64,000 nucleotides of DNA from Streptomyces sp. NBC_01454 (lineage in GTDB: Bacteria > Actinomycetota > Actinomycetes > Streptomycetales > Streptomycetaceae). Under the pieces are notes generated by a model that was not told the DNA's origin, did no database searches, and saw only the letters and a list, made by a program, of their open reading frames with translations. The translations under genes and the position numbers were made by a program. Below, piece after piece: positions 23,227 to 26,728 of this stretch. The stretch's first letter is position 1. Each line of letters opens with the position of its first letter. The DNA lies in contig NZ_CP109460.1 of assembly GCF_036227565.1 (NCBI RefSeq), positions 5,208,001 to 5,272,000 of the forward strand, written 5' to 3'.

Positions 23227-24084
23227 ATGAAGCTGCTGCGTGTCGGCACGGTGGGGGCGGAACGCCCGGCGCTGCTCGACGGGTCCGGGGTCCTGCGGGA
23301 CCTGTCGGGCCTGGTCCCGGACATCGACGGAACGCTGCTCGCGGACGAGCGGAAGCTGGCGGCCGTCCGCGCCGCCGCCGCGTCCGGTGAGCTGCCGCGG
23401 CTCGACGCGGACGGGCTGCGCACCGGCCCGCCGCTGGCCCGGATCGGCAAGATCGTCTGCATCGGCCTGAACTACCACGATCACGCCCGGGAGACGGGGG
23501 CCACGCCACCCGACGAGCCGATCCTCTTCCTGAAGGCCCCGGACACGGTCGTCGGCCCCGACGACACCGTGCTGGTGCCGCGGGGCAGCGTGAAGACCGA
23601 CTGGGAGGTGGAGCTGGCGGTCGTCATCGGCCGCACGGCCCGCTACCTGGAGACCGACGCGCAGGCGCTGGCGGCGGTCGCCGGCTACGCGGTGGCGCAC
23701 GACGTCTCCGAGCGCGCCTTCCAGATCGAGCGCGGCGGCCAGTGGGACAAGGGCAAGAACTGCGAGACGTTCAACCCGCTGGGCCCCTGGCTGGTGACCG
23801 CCGACGAGGTACCCGACCCGCAGGCCCTCGGCCTGCGACTGTGGGTCAACGGCGAGCTGAAACAGGACGGCACGACCGCCGAGCAGATCTTCCCGGTGGC
23901 CGAAGTGGTCCGCTACGTCAGCCATTTCATGACCCTCCACCCCGGCGACATCCTCAACACCGGCACCCCCGCCGGCGTCGCCATGGGCCACCCCGACCCC
24001 AAGCCGTATCTGCGGTCCGGCGACGTCGTGGAGCTGGAGATCGACGGACTGGGGCGGCAGCGGCAGCCCTTCCACGGGGCGTAG
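23227..24084 (+). CDS. Fumarylacetoacetate hydrolase (FAH) family protein
   Basis: 285-aa enzyme of the FAH superfamily, which cleaves or isomerises beta-diketo and 2-oxo acids such as acylpyruvates. ATG 23227 has GGGAG eight bases upstream. After a small N-terminal domain comes the catalytic core: IVCIGLNYHDHARETG (catalytic His), EPILFLKAPDTVVGPDD, the metal-binding DWEVELAVVIGR, AYAVAHDVSERAFQ-type segment, and the end block TPAGVAMG. Length and motifs fit the 2-hydroxyhepta-2,4-diene-1,7-dioate isomerase/ureidoglycolate-lyase-like subgroup. No neighbour identifies a pathway, so the substrate is open. Confidence 0.88.
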   Translation: MKLLRVGTVGAERPALLDGSGVLRDLSGLVPDIDGTLLADERKLAAVRAAAASGELPRLDADGLRTGPPLARIGKIVCIGLNYHDHARETGATPPDEPILFLKAPDTVVGPDDTVLVPRGSVKTDWEVELAVVIGRTARYLETDAQALAAVAGYAVAHDVSERAFQIERGGQWDKGKNCETFNPLGPWLVTADEVPDPQALGLRLWVNGELKQDGTTAEQIFPVAEVVRYVSHFMTLHPGDILNTGTPAGVAMGHPDPKPYLRSGDVVELEIDGLGRQRQPFHGA

Positions 24085-24095
24085 CGCGGCTCCTT

Positions 24096-24318
24096 CCCAC
24101 GTTTTTGGCTTTCCCGCCGTGGTGGTTGCTCGCCTCTCCGCTGCGCTTGGCTGACTTCCCACGTTGTCGTCTGCGGCGTCGTGGTTCGTCTCGCCGTTGC
24201 GCCTGCGGCGGGCGGGTGGGTGTGGGGTGCGGTGACGGGCCTCCGGGGGTGGGTGTTCGGACTGCTTCGCTTTACGTCCGAACACCCACCCCCTCCGGCC
24301 CGTCCCCTCCCGTGGGGG
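24096..24318 (+). repeat. Left arm of a large imperfect inverted repeat
   Basis: This intergenic stretch of about 220 bp matches, in reverse complement and with small gaps, the stretch at about 24421-24650. Shared blocks in order include the CCCGCCGTGG-type start, GTTGTCGTCTGCGGCGTCGT, GGTTCGTCTCGCCGTTGCGC, GGTGCGGTGACGGGCCTCCG, and the hairpin loop TGCTTCGCTTTAC. It is non-coding by eye: frames here give low-complexity products. The two arms surround about 100 bp of unique sequence. Confidence 0.85.
24246..24292 (+). repeat. Perfect hairpin A with loop TGCTTCGCTTTAC
   Basis: GGGGTGGGTGTTCGGAC (24246-24262) pairs perfectly with GTCCGAACACCCACCCC (24276-24292), a 17-bp stem around the 13-nt loop TGCTTCGCTTTAC. 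The loop recurs exactly, in inverted orientation, in hairpin B, whereas the stem is different there. Confidence 0.9.
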
Positions 24319-24420
24319 GATGAGTGAACGTGTGTGGGGGCGGGCCGCCGATGGCCGTCTCGGTACGACCTGTCAGGCGCGCTGGACCAGCTGGGGCCAC
24401 CCCCACCGGCTGTTCCTCTC

Positions 24421-24650
24421 CCACAACGGGAGGGGGCGGGCCGGAGGGGCCGGTGTGTGGGACGTAAAGCGAAGCAGTCCCACACACCGGCCCCGGAGGC
24501 CCGTCACCGCACCCGACAGCCCCGCGCAGCGGACCCCGCCCGCCGCCAGGCGCAACGGCGAGACGAACCACGACGCCGCAGACGACAACGCGGGAATCAG
24601 CCCCGCGCAGCGGAGAGGCGCAACGGCGGGAAAGCCAAAATCGGGCCGAG
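24421..24650 (-). repeat. Right arm of the inverted repeat
   Basis: This is the reverse-complement partner of 24096-24318. Beyond hairpin B it carries the matching blocks for the left arm, with a GGGAAAGCC stretch at the far end. It continues into further repeat copies up to the MFS gene; a 17-nt core CAGCCCCGCGCAGCGGA occurs three times in direct orientation, at 24517-24533, 24598-24614 and 24745-24761. Confidence 0.85.
24446..24494 (-). repeat. Perfect hairpin B, same loop as hairpin A, different stem
   Basis: GGGGCCGGTGTGTGGGAC (24446-24463) pairs perfectly with GTCCCACACACCGGCCCC (24477-24494), an 18-bp stem. Its loop GTAAAGCGAAGCA is the exact reverse complement of the hairpin A loop. 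Both strands of the stem have changed together relative to hairpin A. Confidence 0.9.
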
Positions 24651-24761
24651 GCAAAGCGCAGCGGACAGGCAACGGCGAGCGCACCGCGAAGCGGGCGAAA
24701 CACGGCGAGAAACCCCACGGCGGATCAGCCAACAACGTGGGAATCAGCCCCGCGCAGCGGA
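24592..24761 (+). repeat. Direct repeat pair flanking the right arm
   Basis: An identical 23-nt block beginning GGGAATCAGCCCC occurs at 24592-24614 and 24739-24761; each is preceded by ACAACGY, so about 30 nt are shared with one mismatch. The second copy lies inside the 3' end of the MFS transporter reading frame. Confidence 0.85.
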
Positions 24762-25927
24762 CCCGGCTCGAGGGGGACGGGCTCGTGCAGGCGGCGAAGG
24801 AAGCGACATCCCAGGGCGGGCAGGACGATGAGCGGGGCGAGCGCGGTCTGCAGGGTGGTGGCGTCGGCGAGCGCGCCGACAAGGGGGCTGGCGACCCCGC
24901 CGATGCTGACGGCGAGCCCGAGGGTGACGCCGCTGGCGGTGCCCACCCGCCGCGGCAGGTAGTCCTGGCCGAGGGTGACGTGCAGGGAGAAGGGCACGTA
25001 CAGGCCGGCCGAGGCGAGCGCGACGAACAGGTAGAGCAGCGGGCCGGGTACGAACACCAGCCCCGCGACGGCCGGGACGGTCAGGGCGTAGGACCACCGC
25101 GCGACCGGGAGCCGGCCGAAGCGGCGGGCGAGTCTGCCGCCGGCCACGGTGCCCACCGCGCCGCCGAGGTAGAGCACGAACAGGGCGGCCGTCCCGGAGA
25201 CCTCGCCGCCCCCGGTCCGCTGGCGCACGTACAGCGAGAGGAACGCGCTCAGGCCGACGAAGACGACGGACCGGCAGACGATGGCCCCGGTCAACCGGAG
25301 GAAAGAAGGCCAGTCATCCGTGCCGGCCCGGGCGGCGGCCCCCGCCGGGTGCGCCGGTGGCCGGGCGATCCCGGCCGACCGGACGGCGGCGAGGCACAGG
25401 GCGGCGCCGGCCAGGGCGGGGACGACCAGTAGGGGAGAGGCTTGCAGGCCGCCCGTGGCGATGACGGCGGAGACCATCAGGGGGGCGGTGGCGAAGCCGA
25501 GGTTGCCGCCCAGGGAGAACCAGCCCATCGCGGTGTGGCTGCCTCCGCTCGCGCGGCGGGCCACGCGCGCCGCCTCCGGGTGGTAGGCGGCGACGCCGAT
25601 CCCGGACACGGCCACCACCAGCAGCGTGAGGGGGTAGGACGACATGATCCCGGCCAGGGCGACGCCGGTCCCGCCCAGCACGGTACTCACGGGCAGGAGC
25701 CATGGCATGGTCCACCGGTCGGTGAGTGCCCCGAACAACGGCTGCACCACCGACGACAGGAGTGCGGCGGCCAGCACGATCCCGGAGGCCGCGGCGTAGG
25801 TGTAGGCCCGTTCGGAGACGAAGAAGGGCACCAGGGCGGCCACCGAGCCCTGGTAGATGTCCACGCAGGCATGTCCCAGGGACAGCAGGGTGAGAGGTCC
25901 GGTACGCCGGGTCTGGTGGGTTGACAT
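24725..25927 (-). CDS. MFS transporter (fosmidomycin-resistance-like)
   Basis: 400-aa major facilitator protein with 12 hydrophobic segments. It begins at ATG 25927 (MSTHQTRRTGPLTLLSLGHA), then CVDIYQGSVAALVPFFVSE and the A-motif-like PLFGALTDRW, a pattern seen in Fsr-type fosmidomycin exporters. The upstream part of the open frame overlaps the divergent AraC gene and is not used. The last dozen codons, GPLRGADSHVVG and the stop, lie within the intergenic repeat at 24739-24761, so the C-terminus seems to have been rewritten by the repeat. The divergent AraC-type gene 54 bp away is the likely regulator. Confidence 0.87.
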   Translation of the reverse strand: MSTHQTRRTGPLTLLSLGHACVDIYQGSVAALVPFFVSERAYTYAAASGIVLAAALLSSVVQPLFGALTDRWTMPWLLPVSTVLGGTGVALAGIMSSYPLTLLVVAVSGIGVAAYHPEAARVARRASGGSHTAMGWFSLGGNLGFATAPLMVSAVIATGGLQASPLLVVPALAGAALCLAAVRSAGIARPPAHPAGAAARAGTDDWPSFLRLTGAIVCRSVVFVGLSAFLSLYVRQRTGGGEVSGTAALFVLYLGGAVGTVAGGRLARRFGRLPVARWSYALTVPAVAGLVFVPGPLLYLFVALASAGLYVPFSLHVTLGQDYLPRRVGTASGVTLGLAVSIGGVASPLVGALADATTLQTALAPLIVLPALGCRFLRRLHEPVPLEPGPLRGADSHVVG

Positions 25928-25975
25928 GCCTCGATCGTCGCCTCGGGGCACCACGTCGCGCTTCCGGTAAACTGC

Positions 25976-25987
25976 CGACATATGTCG
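25976..25987 (+). promoter_or_regulatory. Palindrome overlapping the AraC-type start codon
   Basis: CGACATATGTCG is a perfect 12-bp palindrome that contains the ATG of the AraC-family gene, 49 bp from the divergent MFS start. It could be an autoregulatory operator, or chance symmetry. Confidence 0.3.
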
Positions 25988-26728
25988 AATATCCGCCACA
26001 CCCCGGAGGCGGCGACCACCGCACGGACGCTGGCCGCGGGGGAGCGCATCGACGCGCACCGCCACGACGACCATCAGATCCTCTATGCGGGATCGGGCGT
26101 CCTGGCGGTCACCACCGACGCGGGCACCTGGTTCGCGCCCGGCACCCGCGCCCTGTGGGTACCGGCCGGATGTGTCCACGCCCACCGCGCCCACGGGCGC
26201 CTCGACCTTCACCTGCTGGGCCTGCCCGCCACCGTCAACCCGCTCGGCCTCGACGCCCCCACCGTGCTGACCGTCAGCCCGCTTCTGCGCGAGCTGATCC
26301 TCGCCTGCACCCGTGAGCCGGACGACGACAGCCCCGAGCGCCGACGCCTGCGCGCCGTCCTCCTCGACCAGCTACGGGCCTCCCCGCAGCAGCCCGTTCA
26401 GCTGCCCGCCCCCACCGACTCCCGGCTGCGGACGGTCTGCGACCTCCTGTACCGCAACCCGGCCGACCCGCGCACCCTGGCCGCACTGGGGAACGAGGCG
26501 GGAGCCGGGGAACGCACCCTCAGCCGCCTCTTCCGCCGTGAACTGGGGATGACCTTCCCGCAGTGGCGCACGCAACTCCGCCTGTACCACGCCCTGCGGA
26601 TGCTGGCCGAGGGCGAGCCGGTCACCACGGTCGCCCGCCACTGCGGCTGGGCTTCCACCAGCGCCTTCATCGACGTCTTCCGCCGGGCTTTCGGCTACAC
26701 ACCCGGCACCCACCAACGCCGTCCCTGA
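25982..26728 (+). CDS. AraC-family transcriptional regulator
   Basis: 248-aa regulator with an N-terminal cupin (GERIDAHRHDDHQILYAGSG, then FAPGTRALWVPAGCVHAHR) and a C-terminal AraC double HTH: PADPRTLAALGNEAGAGERT, LSRLFRRELGMTFPQWRTQL, and HCGWASTSAFIDVFRRAFGY followed by TPG. The layout matches the short cupin-AraC class that controls adjacent exporters. It is divergent from the MFS gene. No ribosome-binding site is evident before ATG 25982, so translation may be leaderless. Confidence 0.9.
   Translation: MSNIRHTPEAATTARTLAAGERIDAHRHDDHQILYAGSGVLAVTTDAGTWFAPGTRALWVPAGCVHAHRAHGRLDLHLLGLPATVNPLGLDAPTVLTVSPLLRELILACTREPDDDSPERRRLRAVLLDQLRASPQQPVQLPAPTDSRLRTVCDLLYRNPADPRTLAALGNEAGAGERTLSRLFRRELGMTFPQWRTQLRLYHALRMLAEGEPVTTVARHCGWASTSAFIDVFRRAFGYTPGTHQRRP

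Follow-up and report, generated by a model that had tools for sequence, protein, structure and literature searches.

Layout of the site between two convergent genes

We analysed a stretch of 64,000 nucleotides from Streptomyces sp. NBC_01454, referred to as the window. The site described here lies where two genes converge, an FAA hydrolase (PF01557; 23227..24084 on the plus strand, from a predicted start codon) and an MFS transporter (PF07690; 24725..26032 on the minus strand, with the domain scanned over 24749-26032 and an open reading frame that extends to 26212). Between the stop codon of the first and the end of the second we found a composite element of inverted repeats (24085..24761, outer limits approximate). 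It is one copy of a dispersed non-coding repeat, built as a nested palindrome with two hairpins, A and B. Roughly the last 10 codons of the MFS gene and its stop codon are inside the element, within the right end module, and the last residues of the protein are unlike the tails of the three relatives that we read. The homologues of the two genes are far apart in six other genomes (G004, G007, G009, G012, G013 and G023), and in G311 the element (locus L114) adjoins the FAA-hydrolase gene and has a different second neighbour, so that the element lies at a rearrangement junction.

The left end module CCCACGTTTTTGGCTTTCCCGCCGTGG was located at 24096..24122 (plus strand) by a pattern scan of the own genome, and its inverted copy with 2 mismatches at 24715..24741 (minus strand) overlaps the last MFS codons. 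Written as CCCACGTT..GGCTTTCCCGCCGTGG, this module is matched 26 times in the own genome when up to 2 mismatches are allowed, and the reversed control 0 times. Further inside, the left outer arm (24156..24205, plus) is 98% complementary over 50 nt to the right outer arm (24547..24596, minus), and the inner arms (24212-24320, plus; 24419-24527, minus) are 109 nt long and 81% complementary. A centre of 98 nt separates them (24321..24418), in which the window copy has no U-tailed terminator. This confirms the inverted arms facing each other across about 100 bp that the first-pass annotation had described.

Hairpin A is read on the plus strand and consists of the 5' stem GGGGGTGGGTGTTCGGAC (24245..24262), the loop TGCTTCGCTTTAC (24263..24275, located by pattern scan) and the 3' stem (24276..24293). 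Hairpin B is read on the minus strand, with the 5' stem GGGGCCGGTGTGTGGGAC at 24477..24494, the loop at 24464..24476 and the 3' stem at 24446..24463. The two 13-nt loops are identical, as had been claimed. Both stems of this locus (L014) pair perfectly, so the reported self-complementarity was correct; the reported lengths of 17 and 18 bp were not, as both measure 18 bp. The stems had also been called almost unrelated, which overstates their divergence: 7 of the 18 positions differ, and the inner 4 and outer 4 bases are common to both. The additional copies in direct orientation nearby are real (for example 24517-24542 / 24745-24770 and 24555-24614 / 24702-24761). A scan of 23500-25500 found no Rfam family at gathering score; the best of 15 sub-threshold matches reached 30.6 bits against a cut-off of 72, and the miRNA-like ones were rejected as long GC hairpins under the cut-off.

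Copies, carriers and shared sites

In the own genome a scan at up to 1 mismatch, the fair test of loop invariance, returned 25 loops, all exact and none with one mismatch, and 3 matches for the backward control pattern. They form 13 sites, namely 12 inverted pairs, all facing inward and 201-218 bp apart, and one single, and all sites fall at 2.78-6.87 Mb of the 8.36-Mb contig. A covariance model recovered the same 25 loops, together with 8 echoes of these on the reverse strand and a single weak extra match. Six stretches homologous to 24085..24761 occur at other own-genome sites (465-631 bp, 89-92% identity). The 12 further sites rule out a simple local inversion, that is, copies limited to this locus, the case that the first-pass annotation had set against its own reading. 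Chance is ruled out as well: dinucleotide shuffles of the window give an expectation of 0.01 loop matches at up to 1 mismatch, and the reversed-pattern control gave 0 in all 392 genomes of the genus.

Among these 392 genomes the exact 21-nt core is present in 15, the own genome included, with 1-49 copies each: 49 in G064, 25 each in the own genome (G000) and G390, 17 each in G191 and G348, 14 in G294, 9 in G175, 8 in G265, 5 in G311, 2 in two genomes and 1 in four. The carriers among the matches listed include S. lydicus, S. kronopolitis, S. albospinus, S. sioyaensis, S. niger, S. nigrescens, S. celluloflavus and S. albireticuli. The same loop with covarying stems is thus dispersed in the own and in other Streptomyces genomes, which bears out the structured family that the first-pass annotation had suggested searching for. 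The loci fetched from G064, G390, G191, G294 and G348 were the first places listed for each. The main loop occurs in 232 of the 254 collected hairpins, though it was this loop by which most loci had been fetched. Variants include a partner loop TGCTGCGCTTTAC, a loop TGCTGTCGCTTTAC in G194 and relatives in G174 (L247, L257 and L263) with an apical part of ~42 nt ending in GCTTTAC and the stem GGAGGGGGGTGTCCGGAA (read in L247 and L257). Other lineages have specific loops of their own (TTC, 14-nt or longer), and a sister family with the TTC loop has 34 copies in G137 and occurs in 5 of 199 genomes. We found no match in 50,697 phage records and one in 72,556 plasmid records, NZ_CP081497.1, a 2.8-Mb plasmid record of Streptomyces sp. 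BHT-5-2. Eight places on that record resemble the element, the best 71% identical over half of the query.

The sites are largely common to several species. At 11 of the 13 own sites both flanks match (82.7-95.0% identity) an element locus fetched from another carrier, the twelfth (L001) is occupied also in G064 and G390, and the window site has one flank in common with G311. In 66 orthologous arm comparisons the stems differ on average at 5.4 of 18 positions (2 identical, 9 within 2). The mean difference is 4.8 for arms at different sites of one genome, with 16% identical, and 6.2 for unrelated arms of different genomes, with 1.7% identical. Of 219 stems, 153 recur unchanged at another fetched locus of the genome to which they belong. 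The nearer relative of an arm (n=129) was a paralog in 115 cases, tied in 11 and an ortholog in 3, although paralogs, being more numerous, have the advantage in this comparison. As far as the compared sequences go, sites that are common to species while their stems are genome-specific amount to concerted evolution, with a weak trace of common descent per site. We dropped the idea of stem-only divergence between homogenised flanks, as gapped identity is similar for flanks (0.81-0.82) and stems (0.79-0.80), and retained from it just the permutation results on unlike stems.

Some sites are occupied in one genome and empty in a relative. At L001 the element is present in the own genome, G064 and G390, G348 has a palindrome of the element's two ends, and G294 and G191 are empty. 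By eye we saw no target duplication at this site, whose empty versions are diverged. At L069 only G064 of six genomes has the element, and at L064 G294 has TTC-loop hairpins where G064 has 13-nt loops. For the L018/L071 site we searched 61 genomes and fetched 30 loci, of which 22 of the 29 non-own ones were measurable, with one flank missing from the stretch in the other 7. Five carriers have 509-664 bp between the stop codons. In the non-carriers that could be measured (n=22), the gap is 23-112 bp in 18, and the remaining 4 contain 282-706 bp of other DNA. At least 8 of the 18 short gaps hold one simple palindromic hairpin (by eye). The element takes the place of, or enlarges, a spot at which non-carriers often have one palindromic hairpin.

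Stem pairing and the unlike stems of a pair

We aligned 57 distinct hairpins (alignment A1), chosen by the loop and at least 10 inner pairs, so that the invariance of the loop and of GGAC/GTCC and part of the pairing follow by construction. In this set 97.6% of 1026 cells are paired, both sides have changed in 14 of 18 pairs, and the covariation score is 0.586 versus 0.128 after shuffling. One-side-only changes account for 0 cells and U-G for a single cell. Many of the exchanges are G-C/U-A or G-C/C-G on the same sides, for which no passage via a single G-U step is possible. Pairs 5-16 are perfect in 121 of 153 distinct hairpins; the remaining 39 of 1836 cells comprise 5 G-T/T-G, 17 A-C/C-A and 17 others, counted as sequences and not as independent events. 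G or T stands on the 5' side in 1447 of the 1797 paired cells. The stem, wobble, homogenisation and energy analyses excluded 11 of 265 candidates with fewer than 12 of 16 inner pairs, 6 of which contain an inserted second hairpin next to the loop.

Selection on a sense RNA would favour G-U, and the lack of an excess counts against selection at the RNA level, which the wobble counts (5 G-U versus 17 A-C cells) leave unsupported; as A-C on one strand is G-U on the other, 17:5 would read as a wobble excess in an antisense RNA. Double changes in a single event are a published outcome of template switching (sections of PMC8794818), and the scarcity of G-U steps is as compatible with such copying as with selection. 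The first-pass argument that divergence of the stems with pairing kept means selection on structure and loop was therefore too strong for the structure. It held for the loop, whose identity across genomes with differing stems points to selection in these comparisons. Slippage as the origin of the stem variants was rejected, with no clear excess.

The two stems of a pair are unlike each other. Among 75 inverted pairs from 15 genomes (fetched loci), 0 have stems within 2 mismatches, compared with 20.3 expected by within-genome permutation, and 5000 within-genome shuffles never gave fewer than 9 alike pairs. When similarity is measured by edit distance, none of these pairs lies within 1, against 18.4 expected, and 2 lie within 2, against 22.5 expected. 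The orders A-B and B-A of the same two types are both present in 8 of the 15 genomes with pairs. We also read 12 loci of the TTC-loop family in G137, 11 of them with a pair, and all 11 pairs have one arm of each of two types. Folding energies were compared for 73 of the 75 pairs, as 2 fell out by the spacing limit or an N. With the real stems, two local hairpins (-79.7 kcal/mol, RNA) and the arm-arm duplex (-78.5 kcal/mol) are about equal; the duplex has the lower energy in 33 (RNA parameters) or 41 (DNA parameters) of the 73 pairs. If the stems are made equal, the duplex wins in 73 of 73 pairs and gains 35 kcal/mol (RNA; 29 with DNA parameters). The minimum fold of the whole element as RNA runs from arm to arm, as one long duplex via the outer arms and not as two hairpins, so that separate hairpins would require co-transcriptional folding.

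An A-B unit that spreads as a whole could be the simpler cause of the unlike stems. We consider it conceivable, though on balance unlikely, that they instead reflect a rule of orthogonality. Two-sided 3'-end elements throughout the genome would share a recognition loop and never a stem, lest the arms anneal; stem alleles would be rewritten pairwise by template switching and fixed by gene conversion, and each lineage would have its own stem code, with the loop read by a putative factor.

Gene context and possible explanations

For the placement we called genes by codon bias in a script and not from annotation. Out of 178 elements, 80 lie between convergent genes, 60 between tandem genes and 2 between divergent genes, with 36 unassigned. 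The first genome set contributed 82 elements, including 73 loci fetched earlier (47 convergent, 33 tandem, 0 divergent, 2 unassigned), and the second contributed 96 (33, 27, 2 and 34, respectively). Convergent and divergent junctions alternate along any chromosome and are thus themselves about 1:1. Over 193 measured distances, the loop lies a median of 160 nt from the stop codon. Single hairpins between tandem genes (n=33, some of which may have a partner with an unscanned loop form) are 19 sense and 14 antisense. A sense orientation is thus unsupported, and no clear tie of loop direction to transcription emerges, which counts against a strictly strand-specific role of the loop and lowered our estimate for a 3'-end function.

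Our best explanation, a tentative one, is that this dispersed element may well serve the 3' ends on its two sides, as a U-poor terminator or an RNA 3' block for both neighbours. It would sit at the meeting point of the transcripts of two genes. Each transcript, ~160 nt past its stop codon, would fold into a very stable hairpin and thereby be terminated or protected, the hairpin working as a U-poor terminator or as a block to exonucleases, and one unit would serve both genes. Unlike stems would let A and B fold separately without annealing to each other, ectopic gene conversion would spread stem versions through the genome, and template switching inside a hairpin would copy one side of the stem onto the other and keep it perfect. 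In favour we counted the exact loops, the convergent placement, the stop-to-loop distance, the covariation, the unlike stems with their balance of folding energies, the concerted evolution and the hairpins in the short gaps of non-carriers. Against it we counted the lack of a U-tailed terminator in the window copy, the arm-to-arm minimum fold and the lack of wobble tolerance. A search for a GC hairpin with U tract (intrinsic terminator) gave 0 in 23900-24900 of the window; in L004, L008, L010, L012, L074 and L109 the central hairpin is followed by 3-5 T. Sections of PMC8269248 and PMC12207403 describe Streptomyces terminators with long stems and few Us, and parts of PMC3765725 report that overlapping convergent 3' UTRs are common in Streptomyces.

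Alternatively, the element could be chiefly selfish, a REPIN- or MITE-like mobile element that is non-autonomous: an A-centre-B unit with inverted ends that is or was moved by a helper enzyme and for which 3' ends are merely tolerated landing sites. This is possible but doubtful. It would account for the sites that are occupied or empty among relatives (L001, L064, L069), the occurrence of both orders in 8 of 15 genomes, the inverted end module, the 1-49 copies per genome and the single hairpins without clear sense bias. However, Y1, the transposase family that we searched, is missing from 9 of 9 carriers, the three extra own-genome end-module sites that we read hold no coding cargo, inspection of the L001 site by eye showed no target duplication, and the phage and plasmid records gave 0 matches and one match, the latter in a 2.8-Mb Streptomyces plasmid. 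One could also suppose that pairing is under no selection, that nothing but template switching at replication keeps the stems perfect and that gene conversion disperses them; we consider this improbable. The mechanism is published (sections of PMC8794818), and the absence of one-side-only changes in 57 hairpins and the many exchanges impossible through a single G-U step agree with it, but it leaves unexplained the main loop that stays constant across genomes with differing stems, the 3'-end placement and the unlike-stem rule. Moreover, no loop is reversed inside a pair, and 75 inward pairs stand against one outward neighbour case (L116).

That the element acts as a structured RNA, with a protein or a small RNA recognising its conserved loop, seems to us quite improbable. 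The loop is invariant in the own genome and recurs in 232 of 254 hairpins (most fetched by that loop), but the 19 sense and 14 antisense single hairpins in tandem context lowered our estimate, and there is no G-U excess, no Rfam family at gathering score in 23500-25500 and a different loop (TTC, 14-nt or longer) in other lineages. It is likewise quite improbable that the element is a protein site at the DNA level, used in recombination or in organising the chromosome, where the hairpin would be extruded or would arise on single strands. Almost strict Watson-Crick pairing and the location of all 13 own sites within 2.78-6.87 Mb of the 8.36-Mb contig would suit it, as would the loop complement, which contains GCGAAGC, a very stable DNA mini-hairpin. 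Against this, the placement follows gene ends, which a chromosome mark does not need.

Compared with known systems, the repeat is a variant of the dispersed-palindrome (REP/REPIN) kind and not a member of it. Passages of PMC3733652 describe REP, REPIN and BIME as dispersed extragenic palindromes, often inverted homo- or heterodimers and mostly between unidirectional and convergent genes, and give the GTAG families stems of 6-13 bp and mostly 2-3-base loops. Like REP/REPIN, the window family consists of extragenic palindromes that are dispersed and arranged as inverted dimers (in the own genome, 12 pairs and 1 single), and like REP/BIME elements it appears to act at gene ends. Unlike REP/REPIN, it has stems of mostly 17-31 bp, a loop of 13 nt, loops ~200 bp apart in a nested palindrome, arms that are never alike in 75 pairs and no Y1 transposase. 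The GTAG/CGTC tag beside a short stem (REP definition in the same passages) was seen in none of the family sequences read by eye. The Y1 transposase (PF01797) was found in 0 of 9 carriers and 1 of 10 non-carriers, with 5 of 14 control genomes positive; given its absence from the nine carriers, we rejected RAYT/REPIN membership as unsupported. From the first-pass interpretation a real structured family remains, and membership of REP/REPIN is not supported. The family resembles MITEs in being non-coding and dispersed, in the inverted end module in both orientations and in its site polymorphism; it differs in its placement at 3' ends. No target duplication was seen at L001, where the empty sites are diverged, and no parent transposon with the same ends was found in the own genome (26 end-module copies, three extra sites read).

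With its very stable GC hairpins, placed at the ends of genes and where genes converge, the family resembles the U-poor ('I-shaped') and bidirectional Streptomyces terminators in sections of PMC8269248 and PMC12207403. Those are hairpins at transcript ends, whereas the window family has two same-loop hairpins within a repeat, a median of 160 nt past the stop. The cutoRNA loci (overlapping convergent 3' UTRs, PMC3765725) lie at the same place, convergent Streptomyces gene ends, but are a class of transcripts and not a sequence family, and the word 'repeat' is absent from the main text of that paper. Double changes without G-U steps, perfect stems and conserved loops are shared with template-switch hairpins, which sections of PMC8794818 describe for rRNA and microRNA genes and not for a bacterial dispersed repeat. 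Among the papers listed, our searches of the open-access literature found no published description of this repeat family. With many copies per genome, the same sites across species, stem changes on both sides and a constant loop, the family offers a natural experiment on the evolution of perfect hairpins. It bears on whether compensatory changes arise by selection or by template switching, and on how GC-rich bacteria separate convergent genes without U-rich terminators.

Several loci depart from the common layout. An own-genome sub-family (L004, L008, L010, L012) has a central hairpin of the type CAAAAGCCAGAAGCTCGGCCG..CGGCCGAGCTTCTGGCT with A-rich and T-rich sides; near-identical stems occur in another genome for L010/L102 and L012/L095, not for L004 and L008. 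In L059, L063, L087, L091, L130, L132, L207, L322 and L328 the loop is followed by an inserted second hairpin (starting GCTCCGCT..), and the outer stem is still partly paired where we read it. L298 (G000:C1:5012456-5013318) is a related element without the 13-nt loop; we rejected it as a cargo-bearing element, as it holds only duplicated modules, with TTC-loop hairpins, and no coding cargo. The model-search matches L246, L248 and L249 look like unrelated hairpins. L116:1972-2289 (S. niger) is the sole locus in the stem comparison with two outward-facing loops and looks like two neighbouring half-elements. Draft contigs end within ~30 bases of the loop at L108, L138, L151, L164 and L189, and the element may explain why draft Streptomyces contigs break at these loops.
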